A stretch of 40,303 nucleotides of DNA from a virus, in the IMG/VR virus record IMGVR_UViG_3300024518_005224, positions 1 through 40,303 of that record; one strand, 5' to 3'. The position numbers and the translations under genes are program-made. The notes below the pieces were generated by a model. It was not told where the DNA came from and did no database searches. It worked only from the letters and a program-made list of their open reading frames with translations. This document shows positions 2,859-40,303 of this stretch, one piece after another (within the stretch, counting starts at the first letter, position 1; every line of letters begins with the position of its first letter).

Positions 2859-2930
2859 GACGGGAGAGGGGAATCGAACCCCCATCTCTGGCACACAATC
2901 GCCAGGCCCTTCCATTTGGGCGACTCCCGC
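2859..2930 (-). tRNA. tRNA-like gene with abnormal anticodon arm (His or Thr)
   Basis: Read on the minus strand, GCGGGAG pairs with CTCCCGT (acceptor, last pair G-T), GCCC/GGGC form the D stem with GG in the loop, and GGGGG/CCCCT flank the canonical TTCGATT T loop. The anticodon stem CTGGC/GCCAG leaves an eight-base loop, GATTGTGT, where seven is normal, and position 26 is missing. G before base 1 opposite C73 is a histidine-tRNA signature and fits anticodon GTG; the U33-UGU-purine spacing fits Thr TGT instead. CCA is not encoded. It sits alone downstream of the replication operon. Confidence 0.75.
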
Positions 2931-3201: not shown

Positions 3202-3399
3202 TCACCAGCCGTATTTGTTTCTCTCCGCCGTAAGCTCAGGCCTGAACTCGTAACGGGAGTAAGACAGTTTACCACCCACGCGTACGGGCTGGTAGGGCAC
3301 TACTTCCCCCGGTATCCCGCACTGGGAGCACGTAGGCCCAGAGCCATAGTCCACAATCGTAGCTAAGTCCGTGTGCTCGCACTCTCCCCAGTCTTTCAT
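3202..3399 (-). CDS. Small Cys-containing protein following RuvC (65 aa)
   Basis: I place the start at ATG 3399, which overlaps the RuvC stop as ATGA; a longer frame to 3477 lies within RuvC and is less likely. The 65-residue product has Cys-Glu-His near the N-terminus and CSQCGIPG near residues 24-31, so one compact metal site is possible. The tail is rich in Tyr and Arg. It may assist the resolvase, but only position suggests that. Confidence 0.6.
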   Translation of the reverse strand: MKDWGECEHTDLATIVDYGSGPTCSQCGIPGEVVPYQPVRVGGKLSYSRYEFRPELTAERNKYGW

Positions 3400-3950
3400 A
3401 GTCGCCTCAACATCTGCATCTCTGTTGACTCTAAACACGCAACTACCGAGCCCAGGGCATCGAACCCATGCTCCCAATACGACTTGGCTACATCTAGCTG
3501 GAACTCCTGGATGGCCTTATTGCCCGGGTAACGCGTTAGTAACGATTCGATCACTTCTTCCTTGCTCGCTGTCTTGGACCCAGTGACCGCAAGTTTTAGG
3601 TCCATTGGGGAAGCCTCGATGACTGGGACGCCGACGCTCTGGCTAAGGCAATCTATTATTCCCCAGACCCGGCCCAGCTTGGCAGCTATGGAGGCACGCC
3701 GAGGGTAGGACAGAGCCTCTGCGCAAACTATCACCGGCTTCTTCTCGAACAGGCCCCGCAAGTTCTCGGCTATCTTCTTTCCTCTTCTGTGGTCGTCGGA
3801 GGTGATTCTTATCTTCCCCTTCCGGTCCCTCTTCTCGGTCCGGATGATACCAATGGATATCGGAGCCTCAGTCTTTGGCCCCACTTCCACCAGGGCCCAA
3901 CCGATATTAGCGAAACCAGGGTCCAAACCTAAGACGAGTCTGCCTGCCAC
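3396..3950 (-). CDS. ruvC-like: RuvC-type Holliday junction resolvase
   Basis: 184 residues from GTG 3950, with GAGGGGG five bases upstream. RuvC cuts four-way DNA junctions with an RNase H-fold active site and two metals. Visible here are Asp10 in LGLDPG, Glu78 in VCAEAL and the HGFDALG segment with Asp164 as the C-terminal acidic residue. LAVTGSKTASKEEV (about 120-133) matches the RuvC DNA-binding loop. The length agrees with bacterial RuvC (about 170). It overlaps the helicase stop by 22 bases. The likely job is resolving recombination intermediates or debranching DNA before packaging. Confidence 0.88.
   Translation of the reverse strand: MAGRLVLGLDPGFANIGWALVEVGPKTEAPISIGIIRTEKRDRKGKIRITSDDHRRGKKIAENLRGLFEKKPVIVCAEALSYPRRASIAAKLGRVWGIIDCLSQSVGVPVIEASPMDLKLAVTGSKTASKEEVIESLLTRYPGNKAIQEFQLDVAKSYWEHGFDALGSVVACLESTEMQMLRRL
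3528..3544 (+). repeat. 17-bp element, inverted partner of 5626-5642
   Basis: GTAACGCGTTAGTAACG here is the exact reverse complement of 5626-5642. Both copies share the palindromic core TAACGCGTTA. This copy lies inside the RuvC gene. Confidence 0.7.
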
Positions 3951-5170
3951 ATATCCCCCTCACGTAAATGACCCCTGGAGTCGCGGAACAAGTTGAACGA
4001 CTGTCCCGCTTCGTCCCACTTGAGTTTAGCAATCTTTCCTAGAACTCCACCAGAATCTTCCGGCCATAGAAGAACTACTACCTCCGCCATCTCTTCTATA
4101 GACCCAGTCTCCTTGAGGTCGCTTATGGACGGGACCTCTTTATCCGTTCGCTTCAGTTGGGAGCACAGAACTAAAGGAACGCTTAACTCCTGCGCTGCGT
4201 CTTTTAGTTCCCCAGCTATCTCCCCGAACATAATGCGAGCAGACTCTGCTTGCCTACCCCGGATCCGCTGTAGGTAATCTACATAGATTATCGTACACCC
4301 CTCTTTGCGGACCATCCGGCGCATGCTGTCGACCACGGTCTGAACACTAGAGTTACTTTCACATGAAAGTTTGAGGCTCAAATCTTTCGCCTTAGGGGCT
4401 GCCTCCACCATCGACTTCCTCTCCAGTAACGAGAGCTCCGCCTTACCTCCCCGGAACCTCGACGGGTTGATGCCAGTCATCCAGCCCAAAATCTTGGCGC
4501 CCCAGAGGTCGGCGGGGTCCTCGACAGAGATGATGCCAGGTTTGTGACCCTTGCTCTCCTGCTCCAGGGCCATGGTCAGGACCAACGACGACTTCCCGAC
4601 TCCCGGGCGGGCCCCGACTACGAACAGGGACCCCGAGCTGAGGTACCCAATCCTGAAGTCCAAGGTAGGTAAGCCAGGGAAGATTCTTACAGCAGAGGAG
4701 GAATTAGAGTCGAAAACCTCCAGGGCAGAGGCCACGACGTCCTCGGCCGAGACTGGTATGCCCGTTGCTGCCCCCAGGAACTCGTCTGAGGCCCCTTCCA
4801 TCAGTTCCCTGGCTCTGTCTACCTCGAACCTCTCGCAAGCCTCCACGGCCCTCTGAGCCCTTTCCCTGAGACGGCGAGCTTGGGATACCCGGCGGAGATG
4901 GGGGACCAGGGAGGCCCCGTCGAGCTCCACGACCCCGGCTATCTCGTCGACCTGGGCGATGGCCGCGGTCTCCCCGAACTCGGAAAGATAGGCCCGGACG
5001 CTAAGGGGGTTCACGGTTTCCCCGCTTGCCCGCATCTCGAGTACGGCCGTCAAAATAATGGCGTTCTGGCCGTAGGCTAGGTCCTCGGGGACCAGGGTCT
5101 CACCGTCCAGGGCAGCTGGGTGCCAGAGGCAGGACGAGAGGTAGCGGGTCTCGAGCTCTTTCGGGTTCAT
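3929..5170 (-). CDS. dnaB-like: DnaB-type replicative DNA helicase
   Basis: 413 residues from ATG 5170, which overlaps the initiator stop as ATGA; upstream in-frame sequence belongs to the initiator gene. DnaB helicases form hexamers that unwind the fork with ATP. The N-terminal helical domain spans about 1-130, then a RecA-like core has Walker A GARPGVGKS (186-194), Walker B TIIYVDYLQ (Asp298), CSQLKR (336-341) and the GSIEEMAE motif. The length is slightly below bacterial DnaB (about 450-470). With the upstream initiator it should recruit the host polymerase and primase, since no phage polymerase is present. Confidence 0.92.
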   Translation of the reverse strand: MNPKELETRYLSSCLWHPAALDGETLVPEDLAYGQNAIILTAVLEMRASGETVNPLSVRAYLSEFGETAAIAQVDEIAGVVELDGASLVPHLRRVSQARRLRERAQRAVEACERFEVDRARELMEGASDEFLGAATGIPVSAEDVVASALEVFDSNSSSAVRIFPGLPTLDFRIGYLSSGSLFVVGARPGVGKSSLVLTMALEQESKGHKPGIISVEDPADLWGAKILGWMTGINPSRFRGGKAELSLLERKSMVEAAPKAKDLSLKLSCESNSSVQTVVDSMRRMVRKEGCTIIYVDYLQRIRGRQAESARIMFGEIAGELKDAAQELSVPLVLCSQLKRTDKEVPSISDLKETGSIEEMAEVVVLLWPEDSGGVLGKIAKLKWDEAGQSFNLFRDSRGHLREGDMWQADSS

Positions 5171-6000
5171 CGGGACCTCCGCTGCTCGAGCCAGGAGTTG
5201 TAGGCCGGGACGTCGCGGGAGTTCGTGGGTTCGCCGTGGACCGCGGGGTCGTAGGCGATGGCCGCAGGTCGTTTGCTCTTGCCGTTGGCCTTGGGCTGCA
5301 TATCGCGGAAGCCCTCGAGCTTGCCCCCGTTGCGGCAGATGAGCTCCAGGTCCGTGTACTCCCTGCCGTCGTCGTTGTCGCCGCGGTGGAACGGGGAGCG
5401 GGCGATGTTGTCCACGGCCGAGCATATCTCCTCGACGCTGTAGCCCTCGGCAAGACGGGCGGTAATCTTCTTGCGGCGGGGTGCGGTGAGCCGGGTGGTC
5501 CCGGGGCGTTTCCCCAGTGCCTTGACCCAGTGCTCGAACACCTGCCGAGGGAGGTCCGGAGCTGGCTCAGGAGGCTTAGCCGACGTTAGAGTTAATGTCT
5601 CTGTCTCTGTCTCTGTCTCTGGGGGCGTTAGTAACGCGTTACACGATATGTCCTTTATCTCGCTCTTTTCCCTGTGTTTCTGCACCCTTAGCCTGGTTTT
5701 CTCCTGCTCCTCCTTAAGCGCTTCTCGACTCTTGTTCCACTTTAGATAAGCATTTATAAACCATTTGTTTCTTACTTTTCGGAGTAAGCCGGACACTCTT
5801 AGTGCCTCGCAGCTGACCTCCCAATCAGCCCCCATCTTGGCCATCACCTGGTCGGGAATCTTCCCGTCGGTCATGTGCCTCTTGCTCCAGGCAATGCATT
5901 TAAAGAACAGGACCTGAGCCGAATCCGACAGGCCCAATGCTTCAGGGCTATCGAAAAAGTTCACGTCCACTTGAAAGAACAACCGTCCCTTCGGTGCCAT
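5167..6000 (-). CDS. Replication initiator / helicase loader, phage O-like
   Basis: 277 residues from ATG 6000. The N-terminal 90 residues (starting APKGRLFFQVDVNFFDSP) look like the winged-helix domain found in phage replication initiators and replisome organisers. A charged helix follows, then a Glu-Thr repeat linker (about 127-137) and a C-terminal domain that could bind DnaB, in the manner of lambda O or DnaD-type loaders. It lies immediately upstream of the helicase with an ATGA overlap, the usual initiator-helicase order. The repeat (GTCTCT)4 and a 17-bp element lie inside the gene, as origin repeats do in lambda O. The exact family is uncertain. Confidence 0.7.
   Translation of the reverse strand: MAPKGRLFFQVDVNFFDSPEALGLSDSAQVLFFKCIAWSKRHMTDGKIPDQVMAKMGADWEVSCEALRVSGLLRKVRNKWFINAYLKWNKSREALKEEQEKTRLRVQKHREKSEIKDISCNALLTPPETETETETLTLTSAKPPEPAPDLPRQVFEHWVKALGKRPGTTRLTAPRRKKITARLAEGYSVEEICSAVDNIARSPFHRGDNDDGREYTDLELICRNGGKLEGFRDMQPKANGKSKRPAAIAYDPAVHGEPTNSRDVPAYNSWLEQRRSR
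5597..5620 (+). repeat. Four tandem GTCTCT units inside the initiator gene
   Basis: Four perfect 6-bp units encode the Glu-Thr run in the initiator linker on the minus strand. The unit length is a multiple of three, so copy changes would alter linker length without breaking the frame. The location between two protein domains resembles the lambda O arrangement, where origin iterons sit in the linker. Confidence 0.85.
5626..5642 (-). repeat. 17-bp element, inverted partner of 3528-3544
   Basis: CGTTAGTAACGCGTTAC contains the perfect 12-bp palindrome GTAACGCGTTAC (5631-5642). Its reverse complement occurs exactly at 3528-3544. It lies six bases from the GTCTCT repeats in the initiator gene, so it is a candidate binding site for the initiator or a regulator. 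Confidence 0.7.
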
Positions 6001-6199: not shown

Positions 6200-6365
6200 T
6201 CGAGCCAAGCCACACGCGTAACCAGAACTTGGCTTCCTCCAGCCTGCTCAAAGCATTTATTCGAGCGGGGCAAGGGGGGTCGCCGGTGTGCTCACGCTCC
6301 AAGCGGGCCTGGCAATAGTCGATGATGTCTACGACGCTCTCATCCGCCGCTTCCCGACCAATCAC
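6189..6365 (-). CDS. Acb2/Tad1-hairpin-like protein, candidate anti-CBASS/anti-Thoeris sponge
   Basis: 58 residues from GTG 6365, overlapping the HTH gene stop as GTGA; stop TGA at 6189-6191. Two helices are predicted, joined by GDPPCPAR. The second helix, ALSRLEEAKFWLRVWL, matches the signature of the Acb2/Tad1 hairpin family (roughly A-L-[ST]-[KR]-L-E-E-A-x-[FM]-W), whose members bind cyclic nucleotide or cyclic ADP-ribose signals made by bacterial CBASS and Thoeris systems. Known hairpin proteins of this type are about 60-95 residues. It is the second gene of the leftward early operon, a fitting place for anti-defence. Family membership is my recognition from memory; ligand binding is inferred. 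Confidence 0.58.
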   Translation of the reverse strand: MIGREAADESVVDIIDYCQARLEREHTGDPPCPARINALSRLEEAKFWLRVWLGSNGD

Positions 6366-6589
6366 GTCTTCCCCAGGGCGAGCATGGACTCTGTAGGTAC
6401 AGCCCCCTCCGTGAAGTCTCGGACCCTCTCAGCTATGGGTATCCGGACCCGCTGGCCCCGGTGGAGCTTGTACGCTGTTGGATACGCGACCCCCGCATCT
6501 AGGGAGAAGCGCTGCAGGGCAGTAGACTTCTTCTCCCCCTGTCTGCGGTACCTCTCTTCGAACCAAACTCTAAAAACGACATCGGACAT
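6362..6589 (-). CDS. Cro/CI-like HTH transcription regulator
   Basis: 75 residues from ATG 6589. Residues 24-60 form a helix-turn-helix: ALQRFSLDAGVAYPTAYKLH fits helix 2, turn and recognition helix, and the following part (IPIAERVRDFTEGAVPTESM) resembles the end of Cro and YdaS-type domains. The ATG lies at the predicted +1 of the leftward promoter, six bases after its -10, so the mRNA would be leaderless, like lambda cI from PRM. It probably binds the dyad at 6598-6636 and controls both promoters. No dimerisation or protease domain is present, so it is Cro-sized rather than CI-sized. Confidence 0.78.
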   Translation of the reverse strand: MSDVVFRVWFEERYRRQGEKKSTALQRFSLDAGVAYPTAYKLHRGQRVRIPIAERVRDFTEGAVPTESMLALGKT

Positions 6590-6595
6590 GAGAAA

Positions 6596-6624
6596 GATAT
6601 AAATCTCCCTTGCACTACTGTCAA
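6596..6624 (-). promoter_or_regulatory. Leftward early promoter (regulator and replication operon)
   Basis: On the minus strand TTGACA (6624-6619), a 17-base spacer and TATATC (6601-6596). The -35 is perfect. The predicted start falls on or near the A of ATG 6589, giving a leaderless regulator transcript. Confidence 0.75.
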
Positions 6625-6636
6625 GGACGATTTATA
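6598..6636. promoter_or_regulatory. Dyad-symmetric operator covering both divergent promoters
   Basis: The element is symmetric about base 6617. TATAAATC (6598-6605) mirrors GATTTATA (6629-6636), and CCTTG (6608-6612) mirrors CAAGG (6622-6626). The outer arms cover the two -10 boxes and the inner arms overlap the two -35 boxes. This suits binding of a dimeric or tetrameric regulator, most likely the HTH protein encoded next to it. Confidence 0.75.
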
Positions 6637-6638
6637 AG
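6610..6638 (+). promoter_or_regulatory. Rightward early promoter
   Basis: TTGCAC (6610-6615), a 17-base spacer and TATAAG (6633-6638). The predicted start lies within a few bases of ATG 6646, so this transcript too could be leaderless. It interleaves with the leftward promoter: each -35 lies in the other's spacer, so both cannot be occupied at once. Confidence 0.7.
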
Positions 6639-6645
6639 TGTGGAC

Positions 6646-6828
6646 ATGGTTGGTCAAGGGGGAGTCCGGAAACTCACAATGCTGCAGTGGCTCTGCTCCG
6701 ACGCCAAGACCTGCAGGAACATAGGGAACGAAAAGCAGTTCGCGCGGACCCTGAGGAAGATGCGCTCTTTACTAAATGAAGTAGAGGAGGAGTTCCATGA
6801 GCAAGAGAAGATACATAAAAGTGATTGA
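6646..6828 (+). CDS. Hypothetical helical protein, first rightward early gene (60 aa)
   Basis: 60 residues from ATG 6646; a longer reading from TTG 6610 would begin inside the promoter. The C-terminal half (about 25-58) is a charged amphipathic helix that could form a coiled coil. The transcript may be leaderless, as the predicted start is at the ATG. In a two-way switch this slot often holds a second regulator (the counterpart of Cro or CII), but no HTH is evident. Its last 32 bases overlap the next gene. Confidence 0.65.
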   Translation: MVGQGGVRKLTMLQWLCSDAKTCRNIGNEKQFARTLRKMRSLLNEVEEEFHEQEKIHKSD

Positions 6829-7236: not shown

Positions 7237-7441
7237 GCCTCGCGAGTTCTTACTCCTCCGCACGGAAGATAGTATATCCATAATCCGGAGGGCGGATATC
7301 CTGATGGTCTCGTCAAAAGAGTTTGGCCGTGGGACCTGGCAGGTAATCGTGGCGACGGCAAGGGAGGACTACACTGTAAACTTCTACGATGAGCAAGAGT
7401 CCACGAAATATATGGAAAAGCTAGCCGAGGAGTTGAGATGA
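7229..7441 (+). CDS. Hypothetical small alpha/beta protein (70 aa)
   Basis: 70 residues from ATG 7229; a longer frame from 7196 lies in the upstream gene and is not needed. Beta strands EFLLLR, SISIIRR and WQVIVATA are followed by a C-terminal helix. Its TGA overlaps the nuclease start as ATGA, so it is coupled to that gene. The family is not recognised. Confidence 0.68.
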   Translation: MSEPREFLLLRTEDSISIIRRADILMVSSKEFGRGTWQVIVATAREDYTVNFYDEQESTKYMEKLAEELR

Positions 7442-8424
7442 CCTGGGACTGTACAAAGTGGGCAACTAAGGAAGACCCGGCCCGGCAGTCCGACTTCGGG
7501 AATCTCATCGGCCCCTACGGCTGTCCTCGTAAGTTCAAGTACACGAAGGACGGAGTCGACCGAGACCCGTTTTCTGTACCCTGGCGTAGGACTATGGGCA
7601 CCGCGGTCCACCACGCAATAGAAGTAACCCTCAAGTCTGGTCACCCCCCTACACATGAGGAATACACCTACATGGTCTTAGAGGGACTCGAGGCGGAACG
7701 GGGAAACAAGCCGATAGACTGGAAGGACGCGAGGGCCGAGCTCGAGGTAGACAAGGGCGCCCGGATGGCTGCAGCTGTCGTTGATGACATGGCAGAGAGG
7801 GCAGAGGAGATAGTCCTGACCGAGTCCTCGTTTACTACCTGCATCGGCGGCTTCTGGTTCCGGGGTACCCTGGACATCTTGTACCGAGACCGTGGCGGCA
7901 GGTTGGTCCTGGCCGACTGGAAGACGGGGGCCAAGGCCATCAGCAAGATAGTCAGGGACCACGGGTACCAACTGGGCATCTACGCTCACGCTGTAGCTTT
8001 CGGAGAGTTCGAGGACGGCAAGAGGGTCTCCGCGCATCCGGACAAGATGTATATCGTTCAAACCCAGGACATGCTGGCGTACACTAAGGGGTCGCGTAAG
8101 AAGATATGGACTCAGGAAGAGGCAGAGCACTGGGGCGTTCCGATGGGTGGTGTGGCCTATCCGAAGCCGGGGGACCAGAAGGGGCCGGCCTGGTACGAGG
8201 GCCAGTTCTCTCTGGAGAGGCTCAAGAGACTAGAACTCTCTTGCTCCCGCATGGTGCAGATGGTTCGGAACGGGCACTTCCCAGATAGCATGTCGGAGAA
8301 GTGCGGAGGCTGTGGCTTCAGACCTCAGTGTTTTACTGAAGGACTGAGCATGGGCGGGGACGAGCAAGACAGAGCAAACGATTCTCTCGAGGGGATAGAC
8401 CTCTCGGGTCTAGACGACATCTAA
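7438..8424 (+). CDS. Cas4/RecB-like PD-(D/E)XK exonuclease with Fe-S cysteines
   Basis: 328 residues from ATG 7438. This superfamily degrades DNA ends in recombination and repair. The layout is typical: Cys29 in GPYGCPRKF, the GTAVHHAIE motif (about 53-61), Asp in FRGTLDIL (about 140-147), the catalytic pair in LADWKTGA (about 157-164), QLGIYAHA (about 176-183), then Cys-x2-Cys-x5-Cys (about 286-294). One early and three late cysteines would hold a 4Fe-4S cluster, as in Cas4 and AddB. The SSB-like gene follows, so the pair probably supplies end resection plus strand protection. No annealase was recognised beside it. Confidence 0.85.
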   Translation: MTWDCTKWATKEDPARQSDFGNLIGPYGCPRKFKYTKDGVDRDPFSVPWRRTMGTAVHHAIEVTLKSGHPPTHEEYTYMVLEGLEAERGNKPIDWKDARAELEVDKGARMAAAVVDDMAERAEEIVLTESSFTTCIGGFWFRGTLDILYRDRGGRLVLADWKTGAKAISKIVRDHGYQLGIYAHAVAFGEFEDGKRVSAHPDKMYIVQTQDMLAYTKGSRKKIWTQEEAEHWGVPMGGVAYPKPGDQKGPAWYEGQFSLERLKRLELSCSRMVQMVRNGHFPDSMSEKCGGCGFRPQCFTEGLSMGGDEQDRANDSLEGIDLSGLDDI

Positions 8425-13287: not shown

Positions 13288-16200
13288 CTACTCCACCTCG
13301 CAGGATGCGTAGACGCTGTAGACGTCGATGTCTCTTGCGGCTGCAGCCCCTGAGTTCTGCACATAAAGCATCGGCTTCAGTAGGGTAGAGGAGCCTGGCA
13401 GGTCGGTGGTCGCAGTCTCAACCAAGACATCGTCAATCCAGTACTGGACGTCAGAAGCTCCCATCACAATCTCGAGTTTATATACCTGGTCGACAGTAAG
13501 AGTGGACTCTGTCGAGGTTGACGGGGTGACACCACCATCGTTCGTGGAAGTGTTCCAGACCGTGCCGGTTGCCTCGTAGGTGAACAGCGCGTGGTGGGTG
13601 CTGGCCGTAAGATGAGTCTGGCCCAGGCCAACCCTGACAACCGTATTAGTAAGAGTAGTGTTGACGGCTAGATGGCACAGGAACCGCCCCACCCCGCCAC
13701 GGCTCACCCATTCGGAGTTCGTGACCATGGTTATTAGAGCGTCGTCACCGTCACCGTTACCCTGGGAGGCCAGCGTGATAGCCGCTCCTCTGACTGCACT
13801 GGGAGCCTGGGTTGCTGTGCCAGAGGTTGGGTCTGTTAGCTCCCACCAGTCAGAGTTGAATTGACCGATGCACGGGTCGTACATCTCGATCCGGGTCTCC
13901 CTCAGGTAGTCGCCCATACTGGTGATGCGGGCAACTCTTCTCGCAGCACTATCTTCGAACCTGGTGAAGTTCCGCCCAACGGCATCACCAGATTGGATTT
14001 CAATATTGTCGTTGGAGTCTAGGGTTACCAACGTGTTGCTAATAACTCTAGCGTTAGCATCACCGTCTAAGGTTGCTGACCCATTGTTAGAGTCGATGTC
14101 GATGCTGCCGGCCGTGGACGTGATGTTGACCGCGTCTGTGCTGGTAATCGTGGTGATGTCTGCAGCAGAAAGGGTTATGTCCCCGTTAGCAGCACCCACA
14201 GCGGTCAGGATGATGGAGCCATCTGCTGTATCAACCGAGAAGTTGCCTGTGCCGGCTAGGTTCAGGTCTATATCGTCTGCTGAATTCACCTGGAACACAG
14301 GCGTGGAACCAGCAGTAGTAAACGTCATGGAACCCACGCCACCCGTAGTGTCGATGGTCATGATTCCAGCGTTGAGGTCCAGGGCTGAGGTACCTCCTGC
14401 TGTAACGGCTACCCCAGTGGTACCAGCAATGATGGTGTTCAGAGTCGAGCTGATATCCATCTGCCCGTTGGCGCCGTTCGCGTCCAGTTTCACGATACCG
14501 TCGGTGGTCTGAATCCAGAGTAGAGCAGCGGCCCCGTTGGTTTGGATGTTCATCGTACCCGGAGCACCGCCAGCAGTGGTGTTCAGGGTCATCTGGTCGC
14601 CAGAGGTGATGTTCGTCGTAGACGCCGAATCTATATCTACCGTGCCTGTAGCCCCTAGTGCGTTGAGGTCGATGGTGCCGTTGACCGTGTCTACTGTGAT
14701 ATTTCCGGTGCCACCAGCATCTATATCGATGTCGTCTGCGGAGTTGATTGTGAGTACTGGCGCTGTCCCCAGGGTATTTATGTTCATGGCCCCTGTGCCA
14801 GAGCCTGCGTTCACCGTCTCAATGACGATGGTTCCGCGAGAGGTCAGGTCAGCCGCGTTACCCGCGCCGCTGGTGCACCGTATCCTGATATTCCCGTTTT
14901 GCGGGATGAGGTCGATGTTACCTCCGGTAGCGGGCTCGACGAATACCCGGGAGCCGTTCGAGGACTTGAGGGTCAACTCGCCTCCAGCGTCTACGTCGAT
15001 ATCTCCGGTCTCCGTGAACATCTTGATTTCGCCTGCGACTGCGGCTGGCTGGGAAGCGGTGTCTCCCGCGTACAGGATTACTGCACCCTCGGCACCGTTG
15101 GTGGTGAAGGAGGACCGGACAACAACGTCACCTGCTGTGGAGCCTGTAGCGTTGTTCACTAGGGATTCGAGGTATACGTCGCCGCTAACGTACCCGCCTC
15201 CGCCGCCAGTTACAGCCTGGAGGTTTCCGAACCGAGCGTCTCCCCAGCTAGTCAGGGTAGTGGCTGCGTTGTTCGTAACCGTGGACCTCATGTCGGTGTC
15301 ACCAACCGTAAGTGCACCAGCGGCAGCCGCGACCGCGTGGCCTACGGTCATGTCCCCAGCGTTCAGGCCGGTAGAGTCGTCTTCCGCTTGGACGGTTACG
15401 TTGTTCTCGCCCGTGATGCTGATGTTGCCAGCTGTACCGCCGTTAGCATCTAGGGTGATACCTCCGTCTACCGTGGCTAGGTCGATTCCAGATGTCGTAC
15501 CCGATGTAGCTAGGCCTAGAGTCCGCGCGTTACCACCAGCCGTGATTGTAAGGTCAGCATCGGTAGTGAGAAGAGTTGCGGCCGAGCCTACTGCATCAGC
15601 TCTCATCGTTAGGGTTCCGGTGTTGGAATCGATGAGTACGTTGCCAGCCGTATTGTTGACAATGTTTATGCCGTTGTTGGCTGTGACGTTGAACTGGCCT
15701 GTTGCCGTATTGACGATGTTTACGTCGGTCGTGATGTTACACGTGCCACCAGCGCCCAAGGTGTTGGCGTTGATGTTGATGTTACCGTCTGTTGTGGTGA
15801 CAGCTACGGGGCTACCGGTTCCAGTAGTAGACGCTGTAAGGGTCCTCGCGTTACCACCAGCAGTAACGGTTACGGCACCGTCCGTCGTGGATACCGTGTT
15901 GGAACTCGCGGCTCCGGTGGTAGTGAGCAAGGATGTAACACCAGCACCGCCTGCAGTGATTGCTACGTTGCCGTTGAACGTTCTGGCTGTGACGTTTCCG
16001 GGTGCAGCGCCAACGCCAGCATCAATCAGGATGTCCGAAGTGATAGTCCGGAGCTGAATAGGGGCGCCAGCACTGTTGGTAGTGATGGTAGCCTGACCGG
16101 AGGTAGACACGGTTAGCGTGCCACCAGTCGTGGTGTTCATCAGGATAGAGCCACCCTGGCCACCAGCTGTCGTGCCCCCATCAATGTCGATGCTGCCCCC

Positions 16201-17238
16201 GTCGGCCGTACCTGCCGTAGCGTTGCCGCCCTGGACTTTTACGAGGCCGCCTACTGAAGATGTGGAGTCTCCACCTATAGCGAGAATGGCCCCGCCAGCC
16301 TGGCCGTTAGGGTTGTCTGCTCCCAGTATGGATACGTTCCCAGAGTCAGAAGCAGCGTTCGAGCCGTCGCCTGCACCTGAAGAAATGGTGACATTTCCGC
16401 CCCTGGCACCTGGGCCCGTAAGGTCTAGACCAGCGTCGCCCGCAGATATCGTGATATCGGAACCAGCGCCCGAGGCAGTCAGGTTGTTCCCGTCGCCGCC
16501 CTGTCCGCCAAGTACGAATATCGCCCCGCCTGCCCCGCCTGGACCTACGAGGCTGACTCCGATGTCCCCGCCGTCCCCGCTAGTTGCGATGATTGGTCCA
16601 CCGGCACCGGGTATGTTGCCTGCTGTGCCTGGGGCTCCGATGCCCGTACCAGCAGAGAACGTTCCGCCTGTAGCATTCTCTGTAGCGTTACCAGTAGTGA
16701 AGGAGATGTTGCCGCCGGAGGAACCAGAAGCAGAAGAGTTCCCTGTGATGTGGCTGAAGTCTGCCGCGGTGGTGTCTGCAGGGGTGATAAACGTGAAGTC
16801 CTGGGTAGCCCGCAGTTCGTCGGCTCCCATGGTGGCGTTGCCGCCCGAATCCGTAATCTGGATTGCCGTGTTACCTGCCAGAACGTTGAGTTCGAGGTTC
16901 AGCGAGCCGTTGGCGGAGGTGTCGATGTCCACCAGGGCAGCGCCGATGGCACCGACCGAATCGTTGATATCTACTGAGACACCTACAGCGTTGGCAATCG
17001 TGTTACCCGCAGTATAGGCCTGCTGCAGAGTGTTGCCGCCGCCAGCGACAGCCAGGGCTACCCAGGTAGCAGGTGGACCGCCTGCGTTGGTGCAGATGTA
17101 CAGCAGGTTACCAACGGTGTCGTAGGCGGTATCCCCCACCTCCAGGCCGTCCTGTAGAGCAGCTACGCCCGGGAAGGCTCCTGCTCCTGCAAACTGACCC
17201 CAGTGGTTGTGATTGTTGGTCGGTGACTTGGTTGCCAT
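13288..17238 (-). CDS. Giant repetitive adhesin / tail fibre with C-terminal lectin-like domain
   Basis: 1316 residues from ATG 17238. After an N-terminal region (about 1-100), a Gly/Ala/Ser/Asn-rich part (about 165-385) and a very long stretch of Asp-, Thr- and Asn-rich beta repeats (about 385-1115) follow. A repeat of roughly 100 residues recurs, for example SADDIDIDAGGTGNITVDT and SADDIDLNLAGTGNFSVDT. The last 200 residues (from about DPCIGQFNSDWWEL) look like a jelly-roll carbohydrate-binding domain. It is probably a receptor-binding fibre or a beta-solenoid adhesin on the virion. The repeats make copy-number change by recombination likely. The exact fold is inferred. Confidence 0.7.
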   Translation of the reverse strand: MATKSPTNNHNHWGQFAGAGAFPGVAALQDGLEVGDTAYDTVGNLLYICTNAGGPPATWVALAVAGGGNTLQQAYTAGNTIANAVGVSVDINDSVGAIGAALVDIDTSANGSLNLELNVLAGNTAIQITDSGGNATMGADELRATQDFTFITPADTTAADFSHITGNSSASGSSGGNISFTTGNATENATGGTFSAGTGIGAPGTAGNIPGAGGPIIATSGDGGDIGVSLVGPGGAGGAIFVLGGQGGDGNNLTASGAGSDITISAGDAGLDLTGPGARGGNVTISSGAGDGSNAASDSGNVSILGADNPNGQAGGAILAIGGDSTSSVGGLVKVQGGNATAGTADGGSIDIDGGTTAGGQGGSILMNTTTGGTLTVSTSGQATITTNSAGAPIQLRTITSDILIDAGVGAAPGNVTARTFNGNVAITAGGAGVTSLLTTTGAASSNTVSTTDGAVTVTAGGNARTLTASTTGTGSPVAVTTTDGNININANTLGAGGTCNITTDVNIVNTATGQFNVTANNGINIVNNTAGNVLIDSNTGTLTMRADAVGSAATLLTTDADLTITAGGNARTLGLATSGTTSGIDLATVDGGITLDANGGTAGNISITGENNVTVQAEDDSTGLNAGDMTVGHAVAAAAGALTVGDTDMRSTVTNNAATTLTSWGDARFGNLQAVTGGGGGYVSGDVYLESLVNNATGSTAGDVVVRSSFTTNGAEGAVILYAGDTASQPAAVAGEIKMFTETGDIDVDAGGELTLKSSNGSRVFVEPATGGNIDLIPQNGNIRIRCTSGAGNAADLTSRGTIVIETVNAGSGTGAMNINTLGTAPVLTINSADDIDIDAGGTGNITVDTVNGTIDLNALGATGTVDIDSASTTNITSGDQMTLNTTAGGAPGTMNIQTNGAAALLWIQTTDGIVKLDANGANGQMDISSTLNTIIAGTTGVAVTAGGTSALDLNAGIMTIDTTGGVGSMTFTTAGSTPVFQVNSADDIDLNLAGTGNFSVDTADGSIILTAVGAANGDITLSAADITTITSTDAVNITSTAGSIDIDSNNGSATLDGDANARVISNTLVTLDSNDNIEIQSGDAVGRNFTRFEDSAARRVARITSMGDYLRETRIEMYDPCIGQFNSDWWELTDPTSGTATQAPSAVRGAAITLASQGNGDGDDALITMVTNSEWVSRGGVGRFLCHLAVNTTLTNTVVRVGLGQTHLTASTHHALFTYEATGTVWNTSTNDGGVTPSTSTESTLTVDQVYKLEIVMGASDVQYWIDDVLVETATTDLPGSSTLLKPMLYVQNSGAAAARDIDVYSVYASCEVE

Positions 17239-30824: not shown

Positions 30825-31839
30825 AATGACCGAACCTTCTGCTGCCGAGACCGCCAGCGTCTGTAATCCTCTCTGGAAATCCCTGGTCTCTCGCCTGGGA
30901 CATCATTTTAATTCTCTGCTCTAAGCCGTTCTTTCTCGTGAGGAGAGCAGAGATGTCGCCCTCCTCCTTCTCGATGCACTTGATGGCGGAATCGATAACT
31001 ACGTACTCCTCCCAGCCGTTGAAGCCGTTCCAGACCTGAGCGTCCGTAACTAGCTGAGGAGCGTGGGGGATGTACCAAACCGTGGCCGTCAGGACTGAGC
31101 CGGGGGGCGGGTCGAACCTGATGGAAGCGTTGTACTGACCAACGAGGCCCGAGGAGACCACATTACTGACCACTGCGGGAATAGTCGCTAGGTCGGTATC
31201 TGTAACAACCCTGTTCGTGACTGTTCTCACCTCTGTGACTGTGGCTGTGGCCGGAGCACCGATGAGGGCTGCACCAGATGTAGCCGAGAACGTCAGGACC
31301 TGGCCCGGGTAGAAGGCCGATATATCCGAGGCGTTGACCAGAGAGAAGGACTCCTGGTTCGGCACCCCGATAACGATGTCGAAGAGGGCTGCAATAGTCC
31401 CCATCTCAACACCCGGGAGGGGGCCTGTCCCGAAGTCTGTGTTGGACATGCTCCCAGCATTGAAACCCAAGAGCCTGTACCTAGCTGCCTCCGCCCAAGT
31501 TGCCGTCACATGCTGGTTATCAAACCTCTCGTCGAACATGTAGGGCCGGATTGGAACGGGGGACGTGCCGCCCAAGTTCACGTCGACACCCTTCAGGATG
31601 TAGAAGTCGTTGGGTAGGTGGTAGACGTCTCGGGCCGCCTCTGTGGTGATGTCGTGTCTGGTCAGGAAGAACTCTTGCCCCGCTGCATCGAGGATGAGGT
31701 CGTACAGTTCCGAGATGGACTCGTTGATGTACCGGTCGACCTCGCCCCCCAGAGCTGTATCGACGAACGTGGTATTTTCCATGTTCGCCCTCTGGAGGGT
31801 TTCGGTCCGCAACTGAGCAAGAGTTCGTACCCTGGCCAT
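30817..31839 (-). CDS. Head-to-tail adaptor (podovirus connector / tubular A-like)
   Basis: 340 residues from ATG 31839. The N-terminus (MARVRTLAQLRTETLQRANMEN then INESISELYDLI) is the usual helical start of phage head-tail adaptors, which bind the portal ring and the nozzle. The middle is beta-rich and the last 90 residues are helical (EEYVVIDSAIKCIEKEEGDISALL). It lies after the capsid and small head genes and before the nozzle gene, as in P22-type order. Confidence 0.72.
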   Translation of the reverse strand: MARVRTLAQLRTETLQRANMENTTFVDTALGGEVDRYINESISELYDLILDAAGQEFFLTRHDITTEAARDVYHLPNDFYILKGVDVNLGGTSPVPIRPYMFDERFDNQHVTATWAEAARYRLLGFNAGSMSNTDFGTGPLPGVEMGTIAALFDIVIGVPNQESFSLVNASDISAFYPGQVLTFSATSGAALIGAPATATVTEVRTVTNRVVTDTDLATIPAVVSNVVSSGLVGQYNASIRFDPPPGSVLTATVWYIPHAPQLVTDAQVWNGFNGWEEYVVIDSAIKCIEKEEGDISALLTRKNGLEQRIKMMSQARDQGFPERITDAGGLGSRRFGHFG

Positions 31840-36808: not shown

Positions 36809-38268
36809 AATTCCCACCATGACTTGCTGTTCTGAGCCTCTATCTTTTCTGCGAGGGCCTGTTCGTGCTCGTCAGCCTTCTTTCTCCAGAAATCGTCCGT
36901 GCCAGGCACTGGACCCTCTTCTACCGGGTCGTAATCGTGGTGGCGGCACTCCCTCCAGGCGTAGAGGAGGGCGTCCGTTAAATGGTCCGCGAAGTTACGG
37001 TCGTAGACGAACTTGCCCCGGGAGAGTCGGTTCTCGTCCCACTGCAGGAGACGTATCTCGTCTAGGAGGTCTCGGTTGCCCGTCCGGCAGACCTGGAGCT
37101 TCCCGTTCCAGAGGTCGCCGTTCATCATCTCTATGTAGGTAACCTTGTTGAGCTTCTGGGCTGCCAGGACCGGGAGGGAGAACCGGACCTTGAACTCTTC
37201 AGCGTAACCTTTACCGAAGCCCCCGGTGTCAGCGACGATGCGGCTGAAGGGGTACATCTGGAGCAGTTCCCCTACACGGTCCGCCGCAACGGAGGGGATG
37301 AGGCCCGACTCCTTGTAGGACTCGACGACGAAGGACTGGCCCAGGTTGTGGGAGTAGGCGAGGACAACGAAGGCTGTGGGGTCGTTAAAACCTAAATCAA
37401 TCCCTAGGACGTACTCCCAGTCGTCAGCTGCCTCTTCCGAAAACTCCTCGACAAGGTTTACGTCTTCCTGAAACTTGAAGACGAGGGTGTTGCTGTCTCT
37501 AATCCATTTTCCACAATACTCTCGGAGATATGTCGGATGATCTTCACCCCAGCCCTTCTGAGCCTTTTTCCGTTCGAGCCAACCTGCGACGTCTGGGAGG
37601 AAGGGGTTATCCCGAAGAGTCCAACGATGGACCGACCAGCCTTCCCACCCCGCCTGTCCTGTGCTCATAGCCCAGAATGGTCCCGCGCAGGCCGAGTTCG
37701 GCGTTCCCGAGATGATGATTGGACCGTTGTAGTCTAGAGTAGCTGGCTCGAGCACGTCCTCGATAAGGTCCTTGAGAAACCATGGGAATCCCTGAGCCTC
37801 GTCTATTACTGCTACTGGGTACTTCGGTCCTCTTAGCTTCTCTATTTGCCTTTTATCGTCTGCGCCCCTGAGGATGATGCGGGAGCCGTTGGGGAGGACC
37901 ACGTCCCCGGTATTTTCCTTGAACTGGAGCTTCAGCCGGAACTGTTCGTTCAGGGAGTGCAACGCCGGCCACAGGATGTTCCTCGCGTTGTCCCGGGTCA
38001 GGGTAATGAAGGGATTGAGGCTTCTTTCGTGTTTGAAGGCGGAATCTAAGAGGATGAAGGCTTCTGAGAAGGACTTTCCAGCTCGACGAGAGCAGAGCGC
38101 AATTTTGGACTTACTTTCGTCGAGCACGAACTTTTTTTGATGAGCGAACAGTATCTTGTCGGGGTCGAGGTTTCTCTTCCGCTCTATCCTCTTCTGGGCT
38201 TCCTGAAGGACTTTCCGAGCCTTCTTCTCGTCCATCTTCTTGGGTTTCGGCTTCGGGGGCATCCTCAA
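36805..38268 (-). CDS. terL: Terminase large subunit
   Basis: 487 residues from ATG 38268, overlapping the GNAT-like stop as ATGA. TerL cuts concatemeric DNA and pumps it into the procapsid with ATP. Visible: Walker A CSRRAGKS (59-66), Walker B VAVIDEAQ (152-159), ISGTP coupling motif (186-190), then the RNase H-like nuclease with Asp291 (GIDLGFND), Asp347 (IVADTGG) and Asp432 (DHLTDALLYA). Length is typical (450-600). The first 40 residues are very basic and overlap the 125-residue ORF at 38111-38488, so MDEKKARK at residue 12 is a possible alternative start. Confidence 0.93.
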   Translation of the reverse strand: MRMPPKPKPKKMDEKKARKVLQEAQKRIERKRNLDPDKILFAHQKKFVLDESKSKIALCSRRAGKSFSEAFILLDSAFKHERSLNPFITLTRDNARNILWPALHSLNEQFRLKLQFKENTGDVVLPNGSRIILRGADDKRQIEKLRGPKYPVAVIDEAQGFPWFLKDLIEDVLEPATLDYNGPIIISGTPNSACAGPFWAMSTGQAGWEGWSVHRWTLRDNPFLPDVAGWLERKKAQKGWGEDHPTYLREYCGKWIRDSNTLVFKFQEDVNLVEEFSEEAADDWEYVLGIDLGFNDPTAFVVLAYSHNLGQSFVVESYKESGLIPSVAADRVGELLQMYPFSRIVADTGGFGKGYAEEFKVRFSLPVLAAQKLNKVTYIEMMNGDLWNGKLQVCRTGNRDLLDEIRLLQWDENRLSRGKFVYDRNFADHLTDALLYAWRECRHHDYDPVEEGPVPGTDDFWRKKADEHEQALAEKIEAQNSKSWWEL

Positions 38269-40006: not shown

Positions 40007-40161
40007 CTCACAGAGCCTTGTAAAGACTCATCTTTCGTTCCTCTGAGCATCACTAAACACGGAAGCGAACACTCCCGCACACATCTGAACATGGAGTATC
40101 TTGTCCCCAGTGTCAAACACAGTTGATACAACGTCAACGGTCTGACTTAGGTTATGGCCCC

Positions 40162-40303
40162 ACCACATGTCTACCCCCCAGGTATACACTTAGCCATTTG
40201 TGCTGGGCTTTTGTCCCTCTTCACTGAGTAGACTGTTGCCACATACCGTGGACGTGGCGACAGTCTGAGGCCATCAGTAGACCCATACATCAAGGTTGGA
40301 ATG
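40162..40303. repeat. Right copy of terminal direct repeat
   Basis: Identical to 1-142 except at the positions matching 3 and 16 (C for T and C for A here). It contains the same hairpin as 69-105 (at 40230-40266). It marks the closure of the contig. Confidence 0.9.

Follow-up and report, generated by a model that had tools for sequence, protein, structure and literature searches.

A mirror-symmetric pair of interleaved divergent sigma70-like promoters, a candidate early control site in a phage genome

Gene layout around the two divergent junctions

The stretch of DNA analysed here (the window; 40,303 bases) is the entire virus record IMGVR_UViG_3300024518_005224. Positions 1-142 recur at 40162-40303 with 2 mismatches, and this 142-bp direct terminal repeat makes completeness probable, with a genome size of about 40,161 bp. 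The late genes (terminase, portal, capsid, internal virion protein and amidase) run leftward in one long block, whereas the early part is divided between a leftward block (DnaB, RuvC and a replication initiator) and a rightward block (a PD-(D/E)XK exonuclease). Only two divergent gene junctions occur in the ORF map of the whole genome, i.e., junction A (590-735) and junction B (6590-6645), and the 56-bp gap of junction B is all that separates the replication operon, which runs leftward, from the nuclease operon, which runs rightward. Several side observations concern other parts of the genome. A convergent gap holds a tRNA gene (2859-2930, minus strand; Rfam, 39.3 bits) that ARAGORN cannot name, the anticodon being read as two bases; a cluster of TTGAC motifs at 40088-40137 (TTGACGTTGTATCAACTGTGTTTGACA, then CATGTT) lies upstream of the leftward late genes and is possibly a late promoter region; and a repeat-rich predicted protein of 1316 aa (13288-17238), without a PHROG match, is among several unmatched large proteins of the late block.

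The replication operon begins with the gene of a putative small regulator of 75 aa (6362-6589, minus strand) and includes, on the same strand, genes for an O-like/DnaD-like replication initiation protein (5167-6000; PHROG 2447 and 16167, E ~3e-19) and a DnaB-like replicative helicase (3929-5170; Pfam DnaB_C, 7e-36); a RuvC-like Holliday junction resolvase is encoded at 3396-3950, also on the minus strand (PHROG 159, E 3e-25). The first gene of the rightward operon (6646-6828, plus strand) encodes 60 aa, and the PD-(D/E)XK exonuclease of this operon lies at 7438-8424 on the plus strand (Pfam PF12705, 3.5e-22; PHROG 69 exonuclease). Integrase, CI and repressor families had no match among the ORFs searched, which included most ORFs of >200 aa; many small ORFs had zero family matches. 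An earlier note on this DNA had invoked an anti-defence function on the replication side, which is not borne out by PADLOC: there was no match among the genes tried, bar generic PD-(D/E)XK/Cas4-like matches to the nuclease. The same note had identified the product of 6362-6589 as a helix-turn-helix (HTH) protein, and this identity also failed to find support, as neither Pfam, PHROG and NCBIfam profiles nor the P22_Cro and YdaS profiles matched the 75-aa protein, and its single-sequence structure model (pLDDT 44.6) did not suffice for a fold search. The label of HTH regulator is putative and rests on a motif seen by eye and on gene order, i.e., the Cro-like position of the gene.

Relatives were sought by the nuclease, the regulator, DnaB and the terminase, and none with this early region was found. 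The capsid family yielded many structural relatives, with the regulator or the nuclease in none of those searched. A contig that is 99.8-99.98% identical spans only 10647-36918, and the nearest relative genome (L123/L060), the terminase of which is 61% identical, has a different early region.

The dyad, its promoters and the adjoining start codons

A dyad of 39 bp occupies 6598-6636 in junction B. Its arms (6598-6612 and 6622-6636) are complementary at 13 of 15 positions and lie 9 nt apart, about an axis at 6617; the inner part, CCTTG-N9-CAAGG, falls at 6608-6626, and the outer part is TATAAATC/GATTTATA. The leftward sigma70-like promoter (6596-6624, minus strand) consists of the -35 hexamer TTGACA (6624-6619), a 17-bp spacer and the -10 hexamer TATATC (6601-6596). 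The rightward one (6610-6638, plus strand) consists of TTGCAC (6610-6615), a spacer of the same 17 bp and TATAAG (6633-6638). The dyad overlaps all four hexamers. These are placed in exact mirror symmetry around 6617, and each -35 sits inside the spacer of the opposite promoter, as in interleaved divergent sigma70 promoters of the P22 PR/PRM type. Thus, every element that the earlier note had described, from the dyad and its axis to the mirrored TTGACA-17-TATATC and TTGCAC-17-TATAAG, is present. The symmetry reaches past the consensus letters, with GATT before TATA and CC before TTG. Junction B carries one full dyad, compared to the several operators of a lambda-type switch; no second exact CCTTG-N9-CAAGG occurs in the 40-kb window, and the half-site GTCAAGG recurs at 6653-6659.

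An equally good dyad was obtained in 0.06% of dinucleotide shuffles of the 97-bp stretch (P ~6e-4), and the number of distinct dyads this good in the 40-kb window was 2, compared to 0.9 expected. The other 13/15 dyad, AGACTGTTGCCACAT/ACGTGGCGACAGTCT, is located within the terminal repeat (69-105 and 40230-40266). Among the 80,536 sigma70-like scores of the window, the leftward promoter ranks 2nd and the rightward promoter 37th, the -35 of the latter, TTGCAC, being poor (3/6). A stricter promoter scan reports neither promoter of junction B, because both -10 hexamers are without T at the last position (-7). A divergent pair of equal quality was found in 63 of 100 whole-window shuffles, compared to 22 of 2000 local shuffles (1.1%); the promoter pair by itself thus beats chance only moderately. 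Given the whole-window result, the case is one of location in a 56-bp divergent gap, of dyad symmetry and of recurrence, and promoter strength is not part of it. The same 63 shuffled windows are the argument for coincidence, i.e., for an AT-rich intergenic gap that resembles promoters by chance. This explanation has to contend with the local rarity of the dyad, with a second copy at junction A and with the reappearance of the exact spacing in other viruses (both described below), and we consider it extremely improbable.

The second composite (642-682) consists of TGTAAATCATCATTGACA (642-659) and a -10-like TATGTT (677-682), and it comprises a leftward -10-like block, GATTTACA, and a rightward TTGACA-17-TATGTT that has the top sigma70-like score in the window. 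TGTAAATCATCATTGACA matches the arm-plus--35 segment of junction B, TATAAATCNNCCTTGACA, at 14 of 16 positions, with 0.01 such matches expected per shuffled window. At A as at B, the rightward -35 lies 12 from the leftward -10 block, and the rightward -10 lies a further 23 on, so that the composite stands in the same register as 6598-6638. Judged by its letters, this is a newly found recurrence of the junction B composite at the only other divergent junction of the genome. It should be noted that a short ORF with a Shine-Dalgarno (SD) match begins at 672/678, inside the junction A promoter, which makes the -10 at A somewhat doubtful.

The composite at junction A is without the mirror -35 of the leftward side, and most of the letters common to A and B belong to a -10 block of one strand or to a -35 of the opposite strand. 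Interleaved promoters would account for these common letters without an operator. Since A keeps one promoter and half of the dyad, the arms with their symmetry may belong to the promoters, rather than form an operator. On this alternative, the symmetry is simply the consensus of two sigma70 promoters at equal spacing, and the 75-aa protein acts elsewhere or is no regulator. In line with it, the letters retained at 642-659 belong mostly to the leftward -10 block and to the rightward -35. Conversely, the extension of the symmetry beyond the consensus letters and the locally unusual dyad argue for something more than promoters; we regard promoters without an operator as a possible explanation, if not a probable one.

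The ATG codons next to the dyad are at 6589 (minus strand) and 6646 (plus strand), and 6 and 7 bases, respectively, separate the -10 from the A of the ATG. Of the 47 listed starts, two of which are alternatives for one gene, 42 are preceded by an SD match at 4-12 nt. The five starts without SD are those of the left gene of junction B, the two candidate starts of the right gene, the portal start and a doubtful TTG start. The first genes at junction A carry SDs; thus, the absence of SDs is particular to junction B. The left gene has no start codon in its 89-codon open frame other than the ATG at 6589. The right gene starts at 6646 or in frame at 6679, neither with an SD at normal spacing, and codon statistics on the 11 codons in question are too few to decide. 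Because SDs are missing and the -10-to-ATG distances are short, leaderless starts 7-8 bases past each -10 are plausible at junction B. The leaderless reading of the earlier note gains support, short of proof, from the missing SDs and the spacing of 6-7 nt from the -10, with the amendment that the right gene may start at 6679. An archaeal TATA-box reading was rejected on two grounds, a distance of about 8-11 nt between box and start codon and the use of SDs by the genes.

SD-like letters do occur farther upstream, i.e., CAAGGGAG 15 nt before 6589 and AAGGGGGAG 14 nt before 6679, and they raise the question of whether the dyad acts in RNA. Transcripts would then start farther off, and the dyad would form a leader hairpin hiding CAAGGGAG before the 6589 ATG. 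The predicted minus-strand hairpin has an energy of -16.6 kcal/mol (fold z = -4.5); however, any DNA dyad folds as RNA, the distance of 14-15 nt exceeds the 4-12 nt SD spacing of the other genes, and sigma70-like scoring of the window found no better promoter for such transcripts. This RNA-level explanation appears very unlikely.

Mirror pairs in other viruses and comparison with known systems

Perfect mirror pairs (TATA-N8-TTGAC-N(0-16)-GTCAA-N8-TATA) were sought in 2.9 million viral contigs; this pattern is stricter than the pair of the window itself, which would fail it with its right -35 of TTGCAC. Of the 54 mirror-pair loci detected, 32 have the spacing of the window (gap 5). After related loci were merged, there were 16 independent groups at gap 5, compared to 18 across the other 16 gaps (about one per gap), with the neighbouring gaps 4 and 6 contributing four and three groups, respectively. 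Both spacers are 17 bp when the gap is 5; therefore, the excess shows that genuine mirror promoter pairs, as recognized by pattern, occur well above chance, and it does not imply a preference for this overlap over others. The peak at the 17-bp spacer, a promoter requirement, is also what promoters without an operator would produce. The claim of the earlier note that the interleaved promoters could be used by one polymerase at a time gains from these data, as the geometry is repeated at junction A and recurs in viruses.

The gap-5 groups lie outside any ORF of at least 100 aa in 12 of 16 cases. For example, in a phi29-like phage, the genes for encapsidation and for a holin flank a mirror promoter that comes close to a perfect consensus (L169:1163-1201), and each TATAAT is followed 8 nt later by an ATG. 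In L154/L164, the mirror pair adjoins a Cro/C1-type HTH gene, and the opposite gene is of no known kind. In the capsid relatives (1.5 Mb), promoter pairs showed no enrichment of this offset, and the best pair among them (L111) was rejected as having no clear divergent regulator junction. A genome-wide test of offset preference gave no usable signal: the apparent left -35 hexamers at gap 16 are overlaps within TTGACAA. A search for the exact arms gave 9 matches. One of these (L102:4154-4182, also in L101) is CCTTG-N9-CAAGG-N2-GATTTATA overlapping TTGAAA-17-TATATT; it lies between the genes of a putative regulator and of an early operon in a virus that carries an integrase-like gene, and this one-sided motif is possibly there by chance.

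The promoter layout is, by analogy, already known in kind. In P22, PRM (31673-31701, minus strand) and PR (31686-31713, plus strand) are annotated as interleaved, each -35 lying in the spacer of the other, so that uniqueness of the geometry is not supported. The RM transcript of P22 begins 4 nt before c2, and the P22 gene order (cro, c1, orf48, 18, which is O-like, and 12, which is DnaB-like) matches the order of regulator, small genes, initiator and DnaB found here. P22 differs in having two regulators (C2 and Cro), three operators and a lysogenic side, whereas the opposite side here is a nuclease operon; its PRM is poor by sequence, its offset is about 2 bp shorter, and no single mirror dyad of the junction B kind was noted in it. 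In the EcoRV system, the core promoters PCR and PM overlap and polymerase cannot hold both, and in AhdI, which is related to EcoRV, the C mRNA is leaderless (PMC5333194). The C-protein systems share with junction B a small regulator encoded by one of two divergent genes; however, they are another kind of system, the leaderless C belongs to AhdI and not to EcoRV, and the C protein also activates. The OR region of lambda is likewise a divergent early control region adjoining cro and replication genes, but it has three operators and CI, and its -35 hexamers are not interleaved (best scores at 37970-37975 for PRM and 37988-37993 for PR). The CI-type repressor and integrase that go with a lambda-type switch were not found here among the ORFs searched. 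Compared to P22, EcoRV and lambda, what appears to be new is the greater symmetry, the presence of two sigma70-like sides and the occurrence in a phage without detected lysogeny genes.

Proposed early control

We consider it somewhat probable that 6596-6638 is a Cro-style early control site of a virulent phage, in which mutually exclusive divergent promoters are co-repressed by a small regulator. Two promoters of the host sigma70 type face apart and interleave, such that one polymerase would shut out the other. The leftward promoter, which is the stronger by sequence, would give a leaderless mRNA encoding the regulator in the Cro position first and then the replication genes; the rightward promoter would serve the nuclease operon, the first gene of which may also be leaderless. 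Before the regulator builds up, competition between polymerases would fix the ratio between the two operons. Because the dyad overlaps all four hexamers, a dimer bound to it would block both promoters, and co-repression is predicted: the accumulating 75-aa protein would bind the dyad and lower both operons together. The composite at 642-682 probably gives the other divergent pair the same type of control.

The earlier note had instead seen a two-way choice between replication/anti-defence and the nuclease/SSB operon. A true bistable switch of this type would require that the regulator fill one side first and thus favour one operon. Polymerase exclusion is built into the geometry, and P22 has a real decision switch with PR and PRM interleaved. 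Conversely, there is a single regulator gene, and neither an antagonist nor CI was found in the ORFs searched; the dyad shares its centre with the promoter pair, so that its occupation would block the two together; and both operons resemble lytic functions. Thus, the two-way choice was not upheld, a protein on the dyad being expected to block both sides and no second factor having been found, and we judge a bistable switch unlikely.

Returning to the co-repressed exclusive promoters, a broader proposal can be made, which we put forward tentatively and with more doubt than confidence: the mirror pair may be a recurring portable phage element, with 17-bp spacers and -35 hexamers 3 bp apart, that divides polymerase between two operons in a fixed proportion; if both sides start leaderless, a single 56-bp element would tie together the translation of both first genes. 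If active, junction B would be a compact early switchboard, in which a 56-bp gap holds two promoters, their common control site and both message starts. The 16 independent groups with this mirror spacing make the effect of strict interleaving on the gene ratio testable. Where protein matches are lacking altogether, the mirror spacing may also be used to search phages for control regions.
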